A stretch of DNA of 54,297 nt from the NCBI GenBank assembly GCA_947624385.1, contig CANQJZ010000011.1, forward strand, positions 1 through 54,297. Direction: 5' to 3'. Position 1 is the stretch's first letter; every line of letters begins with the position of its first letter. Shown piece by piece: positions 14,555 to 50,838 of this stretch. This DNA is from an uncultured Oscillospiraceae bacterium (GTDB lineage: Bacteria > Bacillota > Clostridia > Oscillospirales > Oscillospiraceae). The translations under genes and the position numbers were made by a program. The notes beneath the pieces were generated by a model, which saw only the letters and a list, made by a program, of their open reading frames with translations, did not search any database and had not been told where the DNA came from.

Positions 14555-14606
14555 TAGCGCGCCGGCAAAAACACTGGCCCGGTGGTCGGCGAGCGCGGGC
14601 GAGGAA

Positions 14607-14655
14607 AGCAAAAAGCTCCCCAAATGGGGAGTTTTTTGCTATAATAGCGCAAATG
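14607..14655 (+). repeat. Terminator-plus-promoter repeat, copy 1
   Basis: About 49 bases: AGCAAAAAGCTCCCC, short loop, GGGGAG with a T6 run, then TGCTATAAT and GCGCAAATGA. The second copy is at 15982-16031. The hairpin with T-run is a rho-independent terminator, and the TGCTATAAT directly after it is an extended -10 promoter element. Confidence 0.65.
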
Positions 14656-14682
14656 AGAAAGTTATAATGTACATGAAAAGGC

Positions 14683-15956: not shown

Positions 15957-15981
15957 AATTACATCCTCAACAATGCCTAGA

Positions 15982-16031
15982 AGCAAAACCCTCCCCAATT
16001 GGGGCGTTTTTTGCTATAATGGCACAAATGA
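15982..16031 (+). repeat. Terminator-plus-promoter repeat, copy 2
   Basis: AGCAAAACCCTCCCC, short loop, GGGGCG with T6, TGCTATAAT, then GCACAAATGA. The hairpin terminates the preceding gene (stop 15954-15956) and the extended -10 (TATAAT 16015-16020) is correctly placed to start the uvrA-like transcript about 25 bases before its ATG. Confidence 0.7.
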
Positions 16032-16050
16032 CAATTTGGGAGGGGCAGTC

Positions 16051-18631: not shown

Positions 18632-18762
18632 TCGACCAGGGCATCGACATGTTGTCCTATGAAGAGCGCCGTGGAGGACGCCAACGCCACCAGCGTGTGG
18701 CTGCGGGACCGGGAAAAGCTGGCCCGGATGGTCATGGACACGACGGAGGGCGCAGATAGCTG
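18632..18762 (+). pseudogene. Decayed paralogue of the adjacent Mrr-like nuclease
   Basis: Two pieces match the neighbouring gene: one reads DQGIDMLSYEE (compare NDQGIDVLAYKD in the intact gene) and the second reads EDANATSVWLRDREKLARMVMDTTE (in two parts: EDANATSVWLRD, REKLARMVMDTTE; compare EAANATGVWLWD, REKLAQMVMDATE). The middle, including the catalytic Gln-x-Lys strand, is deleted and the pieces are in different frames. It is a broken tandem duplicate. Confidence 0.6.
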
Positions 18763-18869
18763 ATATAGCAGAATGAGAACATCAAATCTTTTTTTGCTCC
18801 AACATCCGTTTATCTCCGATCTACGTTATTCTTCAAAGCTCTTATGAATGCTCTGCCCAGAATAAAAAG

Positions 18870-19060: not shown

Positions 19061-19597
19061 ATGGTTTATGTAATAATTGGTTTTGTTGTCATATATTTTG
19101 CGCAAGTCTATCCGTGGGCTTGGCTTCTGCTGATTCTCGATCTTTTTTTGCCGTTGATAGTTCTTCTCATAGAGCGGAAAATCAAAAAGAACGATACCGA
19201 TTCTACTAATTCCTTCCTGACACTTTCATCAAGCATCGACGTCATGAACGGTCACACCTTTGAATACTGGTGCGCCGAGCTGCTCCGGCAAAACGGCTTC
19301 ACCGATGTGTCTGTCACACCCGGCAGCAACGACCAGGGCATCGACGTGTTGGCCTATAAGGACGGGCTGAAATACGGCGTCCAGTGCAAGTGCTACTCCA
19401 ATGACCTGGGCAACAAGCCGGTCCAGGAGGCGACGACGGGACGGGCCGTGTATGGCTGTGACATCGCCGTCGTTATGACCAACCGACACTTCACCAAGGG
19501 AGCCGTGGAAGCCGCCAATGCCACCGGCGTGTGGCTCTGGGATAGGGAAAAGTTGGCCCAGATGGTCATGGATGCGACGGAGGCGAAAGGTAGATGA
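19061..19597 (+). CDS. Membrane-anchored Mrr-type restriction endonuclease-like protein
   Basis: 178 residues from the ATG at 19061, chosen for its ribosome site. Residues 2-45 form two hydrophobic segments (YVIIGFVVIYFAQVYPWAW, LLLILDLFLPLIVLLIE). Residues 65-178 are a PD-(D/E)xK Mrr_cat domain: HTFEYWCAELLRQNGFTDV, then GSNDQGIDVLAYKDG with the catalytic Asp, YGVQCKCYS with the Gln-x-Lys, and TNRHFTKGAVEAANATGV. Such proteins are often called restriction endonucleases; the membrane anchor is common in Firmicutes and its target is unknown. It overlaps the next gene by 4 bases, and a decayed paralogue lies just upstream. Confidence 0.85.
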   Translation: MVYVIIGFVVIYFAQVYPWAWLLLILDLFLPLIVLLIERKIKKNDTDSTNSFLTLSSSIDVMNGHTFEYWCAELLRQNGFTDVSVTPGSNDQGIDVLAYKDGLKYGVQCKCYSNDLGNKPVQEATTGRAVYGCDIAVVMTNRHFTKGAVEAANATGVWLWDREKLAQMVMDATEAKGR

Positions 19598-20021: not shown

Positions 20022-20055
20022 GCGGCGGGGTCATTACCCCGCCGCGGCGTTTTTT
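20022..20055 (+). terminator. Terminator after the nuclease operon
   Basis: Perfect 9-base stem GCGGCGGGG / CCCCGCCGC with loop TCATTA, followed by GGCG and T6. Confidence 0.85.
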
Positions 20056-20090
20056 GCGACGGCTTGCCGTCGGGAAAAACACGGCGTTTT
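20045..20090 (+). repeat. Structured dispersed repeat R1, copy A
   Basis: 46 bases that recur at 31806-31851 with 44 identities. The centre is a stem CGACGG / CCGTCG with loop CTTG, flanked by two copies of CGGCGTTTT. The two differences from the other copy are a paired change (A-T to G-C) in the stem. Confidence 0.7.
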
Positions 20091-20122
20091 CAGGCCGTCA
20101 AAAATGCATTTTTGACGGCCTG
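20091..20122. terminator. Perfect 32-base palindrome between convergent genes
   Basis: CAGGCCGTCAAAAATG and its exact reverse complement, with no loop spacing. The A5/T5 runs lie inside the arms. It follows the R1 repeat and lies 3 bases beyond the stop of the leftward esterase gene, so it probably serves as its terminator or transcript end. Confidence 0.6.
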
Positions 20123-22293: not shown

Positions 22294-22360
22294 GCCGCTA
22301 TTTCCGGTTGCGGAACGGGTGGCGGTTGTGGTATAGTTTCTATGTAATTAAATACGGAGA

Positions 22361-22552
22361 AAACGTCCGGTGCCCCTGACCGCGGTCTGCCGCGGGGCCA
22401 GGGGGTAAAAGGGAAGCGGGTGTGAATCCCGCACGAACTCGTCACTGTGTTCGGGGAGCATAAGGCATGGCGCGAAAAGCGCGGTCACTGCCGATAAGGT
22501 GGGAAGGCTGTCTTGTGCGGATAAAAACCCCGTCAGCCAGGAAACCTGCCGG
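22361..22552 (+). promoter_or_regulatory. Cobalamin riboswitch (AdoCbl-type)
   Basis: The conserved elements are in order: CGGTGCCCCTGAC, the GGGGTAAAAGGGAAGCGGG segment, GTGTGAATCCCGCACGA, GTCACTG...GGGGAGC, GGTCACTGCCGATAAGGTGGG with GGGAAGGC, and the B12 box GTCAGCCAGGAAACCTGCC near its 3' end. It lies 5' of the whole cobalamin gene run. Ligand binding is expected to favour the terminator at 22665-22700 and so shut the operon when cobalamin is plentiful. Confidence 0.95.
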
Positions 22553-22664
22553 CGCGTTTGGTACAGGGGCTTTCAGCGGGCCCCAGGCCACGAGGGACTT
22601 GGCCGTATCGGTACCGGCGCTGCCGTGGGGGCAAACGCTCCCGCGGCGGGGCCTGGGTCGTTGC

Positions 22665-30258: not shown

Positions 30259-30982
30259 GCTGTTCGTGGTGGGCATCGGCCCCGGCGACCCGGCAATGAT
30301 GACCGGTCAGGCACGGGCCGCGCTGGACGAGGCCGACGTGCTGTGCGGCTATGACACGTATGTAGGCCTCATCCGGGACCTGTACCCCGGCAAACAGACG
30401 GTTACCACGCCCATGCGCCGGGAGCCGGAGCGGTGCCGTGCCGCGCTGGAAATGGCGGCGGCGGGAAAAACCGTGGCGCTGGTGTGCGGCGGTGACGCCG
30501 GGGTGTACGGTATGGCCGCACCGGTGTTGGAGCTGGCGGAGGCGTACCCGGAAACGGACATCGAGGTCGTCCCCGGCGTGACGGCGGCGCTGGCGGGTGC
30601 GGCGGCGCTGGGCGCGCCGTTGGGCCACGACTTTTGCGTGCTGTCCCTGTCCGACCTGCTCACGCCCTGGGACATGATCCAGCGGCGGCTGCGGGCAGCG
30701 GCGGCGGGGGACTTCGCGCTGTGCCTATATAACCCCGCGTCCAGCCGGCGGCCGGACCATCTGCGCCGGGCCTGCGACATCTTGCTGGAAGCCGGGAAGA
30801 GCCCGGACACCGCCTGCGGCTGGGTCCGCAACATCGGCCGAGCGGGTCAGACCTGCCGTATCCTGCCCCTGGGGGCGCTGCGGGAAGAAGCCGTGGACAT
30901 GTTCACCACCGTGTTCGTGGGCAGCAGCGCCACTTTCGTGCGGGGCGACAGGCTCATCACGCCGAGGGGGTATGCTCTGTGA
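30251..30982 (+). CDS. cbiH: Cobalt-precorrin-3 (C17)-methyltransferase
   Basis: 243 residues, tetrapyrrole methylase fold. The markers are LFVVGIGPGDPAMMTGQARA, VLCGYDTYVGLI, VCGGDAGVYGMAAPVLELA, VVPGVTAALAGAAALGAPLG and the CbiH/CobJ motif DFALCLYNPASSRRPDHL. It methylates C-17 with ring contraction. Short form without the CbiG or ferredoxin-like extension of some homologues. Ends 4 bases inside the cbiJET fusion. Confidence 0.95.
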   Translation: MGKLFVVGIGPGDPAMMTGQARAALDEADVLCGYDTYVGLIRDLYPGKQTVTTPMRREPERCRAALEMAAAGKTVALVCGGDAGVYGMAAPVLELAEAYPETDIEVVPGVTAALAGAAALGAPLGHDFCVLSLSDLLTPWDMIQRRLRAAAAGDFALCLYNPASSRRPDHLRRACDILLEAGKSPDTACGWVRNIGRAGQTCRILPLGALREEAVDMFTTVFVGSSATFVRGDRLITPRGYAL

Positions 30983-33039
30983 AGATCGTGGTATTCGGCG
31001 GAACGACCGAGGGCCGGGAACTGTCCCACGCGCTGGCGGCGCTGGGCGCGTCGGTCACGGTCTGCGTGGCCACGGACTATGGCCGGGAGCAGCAGGGCGA
31101 GGCCAAGGGCGTTGATGTCCGCACCGGACATCTGGACGCGGGCGGCATGGTGGTGGTTTTATCCGGGGCCGATTTGTGCGTGGACGCCACCCACCCTTAC
31201 GCTACGGCCGCCACGGACAATATCCGGGTCGCGTCAGAACGGGCGGGAGTGGTTTATAAGCGGCTGCTGCGGCCGGCAAGCGAGCTGCCTGAAAATGCCG
31301 TGACTGTGCCGGACGCGGAAAGTGCGGCGGCGTATCTGGTGGAAAAACCGGGCAACGTGCTTCTGGCCACCGGGTCCAGGGAGCTGCGCGCCTTTGCCGG
31401 ACTGGACAGTGCGCGGCTGTACCCACGGGTGCTCCCGGCGGCGGAGAGCCTTGCGCTGTGCGCTTTGGCGGGCATCCCCAGCCGGAACATCATCGCCATG
31501 CAGGGACCGTTTTCCACGGAGCTGGACCTGGCGCTGCTGCGGCAGTTTGATATCCGCTATCTGGTGACCAAGGACGGCGGCGGGCCCGGCGGGTTCGATG
31601 CAAAGGCCAGGGCCGCGTCTGAAGCGGGCGCGACGCTGATCGTCCTGCGCCGGCCGGAGGACGCCGGCGAGGACTACAAGACGGTGCTGCGATATTGTAA
31701 GGAGCTGCTATCAAGCAAGGGGGAGCTCGAGGGGGACGGGAGTCCCGCCTCGAATGGGATAAATAGCCGCCATGCGCCTGCATTGCAGACGCGTGGGCCG
31801 CGGAGCGGCGTTTTTTGCGGCGGCTTGCCGCCGGGAAAAACACGGCGTTTTAAATTAACGCTGATCGGCGCGGGAGCCGGACCGGATACACTGACCGCCC
31901 AGGCTTTGGCGGCTCTGACCCGGGCACAGGCTGTGGTGGGCGCGCCAAGACTGTTGGAGAGCCTGGCGGGCGTATGCGCGGGACCGCAGTACCCGGCCAG
32001 CTCTGCCCGCGATATGCTGGCCGCGCTGGAAGCGCTGGACTGTGAGCGGGCGGCGGTGGTGTTCAGCGGGGACGGCGGCTTTTTCTCCGGGGCGCGGTCA
32101 TTGTTGCCGCTTTTGGACCAGCGGGGCTGGGAGGCGCGGGTGCTGCCCGGTATATCCAGCGTGCAAATGCTGGCCGCACGGCTGGGCCGGCCCTGGCAGG
32201 ACTGGCGGCTGGCGTCGGCCCACGGCGTGGACGCGGACGCGCCGGCGGAGCTCATGGGTGGGAAACCCGTGTTCTTTTTGACCGGCGGAAAGCTGGGTCC
32301 GGCGGCGCTTTGCGGGCAGCTCGTCCGGGCGGGGCTGGACAAGCTCTCCGTCACGGTGGGGGAAAACCTGGCGTGCCCCGACGAGCGCATTATTTCCGGC
32401 ACGGCGGCGGAGCTGGCGGGTAAGTCTTTCGCGCCCCTGAGCGTGCTGCTGGCGGAGGCGGCCCCGGTGCTGCCACGCCGGGCTCCCGGCTGGCCGGACG
32501 ATGTGTTTATCCGAGGCAACACGCCCATGACAAAACAGACGGTCCGGGCGGCGGTTTTATCCAAGCTGGCGGTGACGCCCCATGACGTGTGCTGGGACGT
32601 GGGCGCGGGCACGGGCAGCGTCAGCGTGGAGCTGGCGGCGATGGCAAGGCGGGTGTACGCCGTGGAGCGAGACACCGACGCCTGCGGCCTCATAGAGCAA
32701 AATCGGGAGAAATTCCACGCCTGGAACCTGGCTGTCATCCAGGGGTCCGCCCCAGAGGCGCTGGCGAATTTGCCCGCGCCGGACGCGGTATTTATCGGCG
32801 GCAGCGGCGGGCATCTGGGGGCCATTTTGGACGCGGCCTTTGCAGGAAACCAAGCCGTGCGTGTGTGCGTCAGCGCGGTGACGCTGGAGACGGTGCATGC
32901 CGCGCTGGAGGGCTTTGCCCGCCTGGGGCTGGAGCCGGACATCGTGCAGATCGCCGTGAGCGGGGTGAAGCGGGCGGGGCAGCTTCATATGCTCGCGGCC
33001 AACGACCCGGTGTTTCTCATCACGGGGGGCCGGTCATGA
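30979..33039 (+). CDS. Fusion of cobalt-precorrin-6A reductase (CbiJ) with CbiE-CbiT methyltransferases
   Basis: 686 residues in three parts. Residues 1-243 are CbiJ/CobK (VVFGGTTEGRELSHALAALG, DATHPYATAATDNI, LATGSRELRAFAGL, AMQGPFSTELDLALLRQF), which reduces the ring. Residues 244-291 are a Gly/Pro/Arg/Ser-rich linker encoded by two dispersed repeats. Residues 293-500 are CbiE (LTLIGAGAGPDTLTAQALAA, VFSGDGGFFSGAR), and residues 508-686 are CbiT (GNTPMTKQTVRAAVLSKL, VCWDVGAGTGSVSVELA, AVFIGGSGGHLG), which together methylate C-5 and C-15 and decarboxylate. CbiE-CbiT fusions (CobL) are common; the addition of CbiJ through repeat DNA is not. The start is GTG at 30979, overlapping cbiH. Confidence 0.93.
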   Translation: MKIVVFGGTTEGRELSHALAALGASVTVCVATDYGREQQGEAKGVDVRTGHLDAGGMVVVLSGADLCVDATHPYATAATDNIRVASERAGVVYKRLLRPASELPENAVTVPDAESAAAYLVEKPGNVLLATGSRELRAFAGLDSARLYPRVLPAAESLALCALAGIPSRNIIAMQGPFSTELDLALLRQFDIRYLVTKDGGGPGGFDAKARAASEAGATLIVLRRPEDAGEDYKTVLRYCKELLSSKGELEGDGSPASNGINSRHAPALQTRGPRSGVFCGGLPPGKTRRFKLTLIGAGAGPDTLTAQALAALTRAQAVVGAPRLLESLAGVCAGPQYPASSARDMLAALEALDCERAAVVFSGDGGFFSGARSLLPLLDQRGWEARVLPGISSVQMLAARLGRPWQDWRLASAHGVDADAPAELMGGKPVFFLTGGKLGPAALCGQLVRAGLDKLSVTVGENLACPDERIISGTAAELAGKSFAPLSVLLAEAAPVLPRRAPGWPDDVFIRGNTPMTKQTVRAAVLSKLAVTPHDVCWDVGAGTGSVSVELAAMARRVYAVERDTDACGLIEQNREKFHAWNLAVIQGSAPEALANLPAPDAVFIGGSGGHLGAILDAAFAGNQAVRVCVSAVTLETVHAALEGFARLGLEPDIVQIAVSGVKRAGQLHMLAANDPVFLITGGRS
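31711..31763 (+). repeat. Structured dispersed repeat R2, copy within cbiJ-cbiE
   Basis: 53 bases, TCAAGCAAGGGGGAGC... to GGGATAAA, recurring at 44060-44113. It folds as TCGAGG, GGGAC, loop GGGA, GTCCC, CCTCGA. Two of the three differences from the other copy are a paired A-T to G-C change in the inner stem. Translated here as part of the enzyme linker. Confidence 0.7.
31806..31851 (+). repeat. Structured dispersed repeat R1, copy within cbiJ-cbiE
   Basis: 46 bases matching 20045-20090 at 44 positions; stem CGGCGG / CCGCCG, loop CTTG. It contains a T6 run that is read as Val-Phe-Cys in the fusion protein. Confidence 0.75.
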
Positions 33040-44059: not shown

Positions 44060-44113
44060 TCAAGCAAGGGGGAGCTCGAGGGGGGCGGGAGCCCCGCCTC
44101 GAATGGGATTAAA
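44060..44113 (+). repeat. Structured dispersed repeat R2, intergenic copy
   Basis: 54 bases matching 31711-31763 except for a paired change in the inner stem (GGGGC / GCCCC here) and one extra T near the end. It lies between a recombinase fragment and a terminator. Confidence 0.7.
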
Positions 44114-50661: not shown

Positions 50662-50727
50662 CATATCGGGCCGCGTCCATGGGGCGGGGCGTTCAAACGC
50701 CCGCCGCCATAACGGCGCCGCTCAACA

Positions 50728-50838
50728 CATCTTCTTCCATCCAGACTATACTGTCGGTCCCGGAGTTCCACCGGATCTGCTTTCGCTCGCGGACTGTACC
50801 GCCGATCGGGAATTGCACCCTGCCCTGAAGACATCGTT
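50728..50838 (-). promoter_or_regulatory. FMN riboswitch (RFN element)
   Basis: On the minus strand the conserved blocks are in order: TCTTCAGGGCAGGGTG, AATTCCCGATCGGCGGTA, CAGTCCGCGAGC, GATCCGGTGGAACTCCGGG, ACCGACAGTATAGTCTGGAT and GGAAGAAGAT. Complete aptamer upstream of ribU. Confidence 0.96.

Follow-up and report, generated by a model that had tools for sequence, protein, structure and literature searches.

The window, that is, the whole stretch of DNA analysed (54,297 nucleotides from the genome of an uncultured Oscillospiraceae bacterium), carries cbiJ, cbiE and cbiT joined in one open reading frame, without a stop codon or frameshift across 686 codons (Table 1). Pfam placed CbiJ at residues 2-240 and TP_methylase at residues 292-480, and the models TIGR00715 (168.7 bits), TIGR02467 for CbiE (127.1) and TIGR02469 for CbiT (109.4) all scored above their own cut-offs.

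The sequence between CbiJ and CbiE had been proposed, from the letters alone, to consist of two separate structured repeats whose insertion fused the genes. The repeat pairs of this original prediction were recovered: 31711-31763 agrees with 44060-44112 at 94% without gaps, the second member carrying one extra T, and 31798-31851 with 20037-20090 at 91%. Compensating stem changes were likewise confirmed: the left hairpin changes from A-T to G-C close to its tip, and the right hairpin from G-C to A-T. Both outside copies lie between open reading frames, beside hairpins. The repeat sequence in the fused gene is open throughout, as predicted, but corresponds to residues 245-291 and not 244-291.

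Table 1. Positions of the fused gene, the element and other features in the window
Feature	Position	Strand	Details	Evidence
Fused ORF cbiJ-cbiE-cbiT	30979..33039	+	686 aa, GTG start; order CbiJ, linker, CbiE, CbiT	
Core of the mobile structured element	31711..31851	+	141 bp, without terminal inverted repeats; residues 245-291	Own-genome search, alignment, model R1
Left unit	31711..31763	+	Hairpin CTCGAGG..CCTCGA and conserved flanks	Repeat pair, fold
Right unit	31798..31851	+	T-run hairpin and closing stem	Repeat pair, fold
Net-insertion span	31707..31857	+	151 nt against 15 nt in two same-genus relatives (overlapping cbiJ stop/cbiE start)	Junction comparison
Partial copy, left unit only	44060..44113	+	Between ORFs, with a terminator-like hairpin after it	Repeat pair, own-genome search
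Partial copy, right half	20037..20122	+	With right-end hairpin CAGGCCGTCAAAA...TTTTTGACGGCCTG	Repeat pair, end-pattern search
Cobalamin riboswitch	22351..22567	+	Upstream of the cbi region	Rfam
FMN riboswitch	50725..50836	-		Rfam
54-bp repeat pair (87%)	14606..14659 and 15981..16034		GC hairpin, then TTTTTTGCTATAAT; second copy and the beginning of an ORF overlap; this ORF has ABC-transporter and UvrA DNA-binding matches	
102-bp direct repeat (80%)	18662..18763 and 19496..19597		Bounds a segment that includes an Mrr-type restriction endonuclease domain	

Copies of the element in the genome and the genus

A search of the window's own genome (2.18 Mb, a draft of 65 contigs) with positions 31700-31860 as query returned 46 matches at E ≤10, 44 of them at E <0.001; the two weakest (E 0.09 and 3.7) carry no weight, and the best non-self match (E = 2.1e-58) excludes chance. 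Ten matches are full-length: the window copy, eight of 139-141 bp that cover query positions 12/14-152 at 93-95% identity, and one (L010) at 86%. Since the whole stretch recurs elsewhere in the genome, the two repeats belong, as its ends, to a single element of 141 bp that also takes in the middle, and the view that they are separate elements had to be given up; two independent repeat families are ruled out by the same search. There were also 34 partial matches, mostly to the left part alone. Four partial matches end at query position 97, one of which (L013) runs off its contig, and in the other three (L011, L012 and L014 on contigs C5, C52 and C4 of the own genome, G000) the right part resumes after about 109 bp. 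These three represent a longer form of the element, with about 109 bp of additional GC-rich hairpin sequence between query positions 97 and 102.

Element matches were found in 23 of the 35 same-genus genomes, own included. A total of 26 distinct full-length copies, including that of the window, were collected, all from the own or same-genus genomes. At three loci (L161, L066 and L067) the element and its flanks occur in tandem repeats. Pfam analysis of open reading frames spanning the element was performed for 20 of 94 rows; the window's frame is the only one of the 20 with domains on both sides, while that of L119 has one domain far to one side and 18 have none.

Structural conservation and spread of the element

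A structure of 43 pairs was examined on the alignment of the 26 full-length copies, in which 97.1% of the cells hold standard pairs. Changes on both sides of a pair were observed at nine pairs, in 34 cells, against 8.9 in shuffled and at most 5 in slid controls. The weak point of this alignment lies in its 18 pair types, an unexceptional number reached by 66 of 500 shuffles, and in helix 4, which pairs in 79% of cells. Model R1, a covariance model built from the 26 copies, matches window positions 31710-31851 with 169.6 bits (E 2.9e-42), this copy being part of the training set.

The covariance model matched 105 times across 89 loci, with 98 matches reported over model positions 1-142; the loci had been preselected as holders of the core among the matches listed. 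Nine of the loci represent nine other genera of the family, and 80 come from a named genome collection, again among the matches listed (at least 111 stretches in the pattern scan). The titles of these 80 include Dysosmobacter, Oscillibacter, Pseudoflavonifractor, Intestinimonas, Galloscillospira and Pelethomonas among others, the remaining ones reading Oscillospiraceae, Ruminococcaceae, Clostridium sp., or only Clostridiales, Clostridia or bacterium; the set includes some same-genus loci, at least three (L118, L122 and L143) bear one isolate name, and a few records are present twice. In the extended alignment of 103 distinct rows, 36 of the 43 pairs show changes on both sides (556 cells, against 128 shuffled and 60-119 slid), and helix 4 pairs in 71%. 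This alignment follows the model, and the pattern used to find the 80 loci included the first hairpin, whose invariance therefore proves nothing; helices 2-5 lie outside the pattern. Covariation of the core fold is seen both inside the genus and outside it, and the window copy is predicted still to form this fold. Two of the checks suggested by the original prediction, a search for genome-wide copies and for covariation, thus yielded many copies and a covarying fold.

Rfam gave no gathering-score hit on the element in a search of the whole window, the FMN and cobalamin riboswitches being the only hits. For 12 of 30 loci, at E ≤1, four matches of 19-29 bits were obtained against gathering scores of 50-114, and one of these, isrG at E 0.3, falls on the element copy in L007. 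A known Rfam RNA was rejected on these searches, as no match reached a gathering score. The literature searched, through titles and the openings of abstracts, yielded no name or description of the element, in keeping with the earlier surmise that the family may be undescribed. Model R1 applied to 117 genomes of the order matched only the own genome (1 of 117), a weak negative with at most 27 first-look candidates scored per genome under stricter filters; it counts weakly against wide spread and contrasts with the 89 core-preselected loci. The plasmids and phages searched had no match to the element and the viral contigs searched had one.

The cbiJ-cbiE junction in related genomes

The 35 same-genus genomes, own included, were searched with the first 514 residues of the fused reading frame. 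Eight match, of which, besides the own genome, only G017 and G022 hold cbiJ and cbiE genes; the remaining five (G012, G013, G027, G029 and G030) match around the linker alone, through copies of the element. At the G017 junction, AAGGAGCTTTTGAAATGCAAGTGACGCTGATC, the ATG of cbiE stands a few bases before the TGA of cbiJ in a different frame, and the G022 junction is similar. Both same-genus relatives of the window thus keep the genes separate and overlapping. The net gain of 136 nt in the window equals 1 modulo 3, which shifts cbiE into the frame of cbiJ, and the ATG of cbiE is gone from the junction. The right junction of the window, GTTTTAAATTAACGCTG, resembles CTTTTGAAATGCAAGTGACGCTG of the relatives; a target duplication is not recognisable at the window copy, and this resemblance supports no claim of one.

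A protein-conserved linker common to the relatives is ruled out, as G017 and G022 are without it, and their junctions agree with the central proposal that an inserted structured repeat fused the two genes. What would speak against an insertion had been set beforehand, namely a conserved linker in relatives or a want of further copies and covariation; with relatives that are without the linker, and with copies and covariation in abundance, these considerations favour insertion. The alternative of an assembly chimera at a repeat might be raised by the 65-contig draft and the repetition of the element, but it is barely credible, considering that both flanks are the orthologous neighbours found in G017 and G022, in unchanged order, and that the window copy differs from each of the 25 other distinct full-length copies.

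A search of the family gave matches in 93 of 250 genomes at E 1e-20, and 31 junctions were examined, comprising the 29 best-scoring loci of this search together with G017 and G022. Adjacent genes in different frames were found at 21 junctions, natural fusions at five, genes in the same frame with intervening stops at two, and no cbiE beside cbiJ at three. The five natural fusions indicate that fusion is tolerated elsewhere in the family. Like the window, they hold CbiJ and CbiE in one stop-free frame; they differ in a gap of 18-21 nt (141 nt in the window by the same measure), with 6-7 residues between the domains and no element, against 47 residues in the window. Novelty therefore does not extend to the CbiJ-CbiE-CbiT architecture, which was known, but applies, as far as the searches go, to a fusion made by an element with the empty site at hand.

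The fused protein

Between the window and G017 or G022, dN/dS is 0.27-0.30 for CbiJ and 0.22-0.25 for CbiET, the values between the unfused G017 and G022 being 0.23 and 0.21, respectively. These ratios indicate that purifying selection acts on the three domains of the fused frame. They bear on the notion that the insertion broke the pathway and left a decaying pseudogene, a notion to which the lost ATG of cbiE and the possible harm of a 47-residue insert to folding lend some weight. Such decay appears very improbable in view of the 686 codons without frameshift or stop, the CbiET ratio close to that of the unfused relatives (a very recent insertion would show no decay yet), the natural fusions of the family, and the neighbouring cbi/cob genes, four of five tested exceeding a curated cut-off and the CbiG-like one scoring 237 bits against 326.

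An AlphaFold model of the fusion (39 sequences) has a mean pLDDT of 88.8 and a pTM of 0.55. The linker is predicted to be disordered because pLDDT falls below 50 at residues 252-287, and a floppy linker of 47 residues seems to be what the repeat DNA encodes. The only in-frame start-like codons of the linker are TTG at 31783 and TTG at 31825, the latter 11 codons ahead of the TLIGAG of CbiE, at which CbiE could restart. CbiE would then still be made separately by ribosomes restarting at one of the two codons within the element, read-through being incidental, much as the relatives keep separate genes. This is distinctly unlikely: CGGCGTTTTTTGCGGCGGC ahead of 31825 shows by eye no purine-rich ribosome-binding site, the codon falls in the loop of a hairpin predicted to be stable, and the lack of a stop between the domains means that read-through yields the fusion regardless.

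Ends of the element and target hairpins

Complete copies typically span CAGACTGTCAAAGAA to TTTTTTGACGGCCTG. The unit measures about 200 bp between its ends, as counted on L004, is multicopy and has no transposase gene. Flanks were compared for 152 unique core occurrences, requiring a direct repeat score of at least 14 between the left and right flanks; duplications were detected in 73 of the 152 copies, and 79 have none at this cut-off, whereas shuffling the right flanks among loci left duplications in 3 of 152. Ten rows of seven loci (tandem, long or composite) were dropped and the other 63 duplications examined for hairpins. A stem of at least 8 is present in 57 of the 63 (100 of 1890 random segments) and a stem of at least 9 in 56 (48 of 1890); the control at a stem of at least 6 was too lax (553 of 1260) and was redone at stems 7-10. 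For the 59 of 63 with a stem of at least 6, the duplication is 23-43 bp long (median 31), with a Spearman correlation of 0.68 with hairpin length that is partly built in, as the hairpin is measured inside the duplication.

In the 57 hairpin duplications, an A-rich stretch precedes the left copy in 40 and the right copy in 5, and a T-rich stretch follows the right copy in 45 and the left in 19, a placement suggesting cuts at about the two feet of the hairpin. As target terminators, 12 of these 57 have a T-tract only, 7 an A-tract only, 33 both and 5 neither; there is therefore no clear strand bias, and no evidence for a role at the RNA rather than the DNA level. At several loci (L112, one of two in L134, L168, L174, L176, L188 and L199) the loops are opposite, the right one being the reverse complement of the left while the stems agree, which would fit a flip of one hairpin at the time of insertion or later. 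A small number of duplications (e.g. L053 and L038) consist of non-hairpin sequence. The element in L127 and L154 is flanked by non-hairpin duplications of 73-86 bp, alike between both loci.

The window copy is without both terminal repeats, and among the 26 full-length copies the same holds only for L038, which sits between 16-bp non-hairpin repeats. The window copy may have entered either as a full insertion that was later trimmed or by movement of an end-less form.

With its fold covarying over many loci and still formed by the window copy, the element might also be viewed as a regulatory RNA of the cbi mRNA, retained for a purpose such as translation coupling or mRNA decay. This appears unlikely, as the element is absent from the site in G017 and G022, many of the other copies sit at hairpins of gut bacteria where no connection to cbi genes was apparent, and Rfam gave no gathering hit.

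Relationship with the IS1182 family

A PF13751 search of the genus gave a match in 12 of the 35 genomes, in nine of them over the cut-off. One locus (L250, genome G011) encodes a 474-aa IS1182 transposase (NF033551, 406 bits against a cut-off of 270) that lies within CAGTCTGTCAAAGAA...TTCTTTGACAGACTG, with the hairpin GGACACGCATTCGCGTGTC on each side. The ends CAGACTGTCAAAGAA and TTTTTTGACGGCCTG of the element family match these IS ends, CAGTCTGTCAAAGAA and TTCTTTGACAGACTG, the window copy being without ends. The target type is also the same, a hairpin being duplicated around L250 and around many copies of the element, though this is not seen at the window copy. Loci L258, L260 and L261, with weaker transposase matches, have similar end sequences beside hairpins. 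No trace of the structured core was seen in the examined end sequences of the L250 IS.

This complete IS with matching ends belongs to a genome other than the window's. In the own genome, PF13751 gave one partial match (contig C19, 95 of 125 positions, in a 149-aa open frame). The pattern CAGRCYGTCAAA occurs there at 35 sites, seven of them away from the element. An IS with the element's ends was sought at these seven and rejected, the sites looking by eye like plain coding or intergenic sequence over about 70-110 bases on each side; one of them is a lone right-end hairpin.

The element is best read as a miniature (MITE-like) relative of an IS1182-family IS, from which it differs in having no transposase and in a structured core not seen in the IS ends. 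Most economically, an IS1182 transposase would move the small element into terminator hairpins. According to the available part of the report on IS1272, an IS1182-family member, that IS targets inverted repeats without a common sequence and replaces the hairpin without duplication, and duplication of the whole hairpin was drawn as pathway b of its model (PMC5678879). Hairpin targets and, through L250, matching ends are shared with the family including IS1272; whereas IS1272 replaces the hairpin, the copies described here duplicate it whole, which fits pathway b in that part of the report.

Origin of the fusion

The reading preferred here, with a probability of roughly 0.83, is that 31711-31851 represents the core of an IS1182-related, non-autonomous element that inserted at the overlap of cbiJ and cbiE and joined their frames, most likely giving a single fusion protein with a disordered linker. 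An ancestral element, probably mobilised in trans by an IS1182 transposase, would have inserted where the genes overlap; its ends would have been lost by a process that we infer, and the remaining net 136 nt would have removed the start codon of cbiE and united both frames. The cell would most likely make one CbiJ-CbiE-CbiT protein, in which the domains presumably work as before, joined by the disordered linker of 47 residues that the element writes. At the level of sequence, this reading draws on the copies, the empty site, the frame change, the domains, purifying selection, the hairpin duplications, the IS1182 carrier and covariation.

A broader reading is offered tentatively, as it is judged somewhat more likely to be wrong than right: the element may be a mobile carrier of an as yet undescribed Oscillospiraceae structured RNA, whose core an IS1182-type transposase would put, by way of terminator hairpins, into the 3' ends of mRNAs with termination kept, the module in the window being read instead as protein, as a new linker. 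Duplication of the hairpin would tend to leave a left copy without and a right copy with the T-tract, and with the T-tract staying on the right copy the core would therefore enter the 3' end of the host mRNA and leave termination unharmed.

Comparison with known elements and significance

Rickettsia palindromic elements (RPEs) are described, in the part of the account available, as short mobile palindromes that are translated in frame as part of ordinary metabolic proteins, with nearly half of those first reported lying in genes (PMC10969869). The window element is apparently alike in being in frame and open, with domains on both sides. By description, it differs in occurring in other bacteria and in an insert that joined two genes; RPEs are often genic, whereas here one of the 20 tested spanning frames has domains on both sides. 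The earlier idea of repeat DNA acting as a protein linker thus stands as regards reading in frame, but translated mobile repeats were already known from Rickettsia (PMC10969869), as were IS1182 members that target palindromes (PMC5678879), to judge from the available parts of both sources. As far as the searches go, what is new is the element family with its covarying core, the large number of whole-hairpin duplications, and a fusion of two genes made by such an element, with an empty site in relatives.

The finding thus presents a structural module that covaries in several Oscillospiraceae genera, without a gathering-score hit in Rfam, and many natural duplications of whole hairpins, which are among the outcomes that the published model of structure-dependent transposition for IS1272 depicts, in the part available. 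In the window, a mobile element appears to have been caught in the act of fusing two genes, in a lineage other than Rickettsia and with relatives that still show the empty site.
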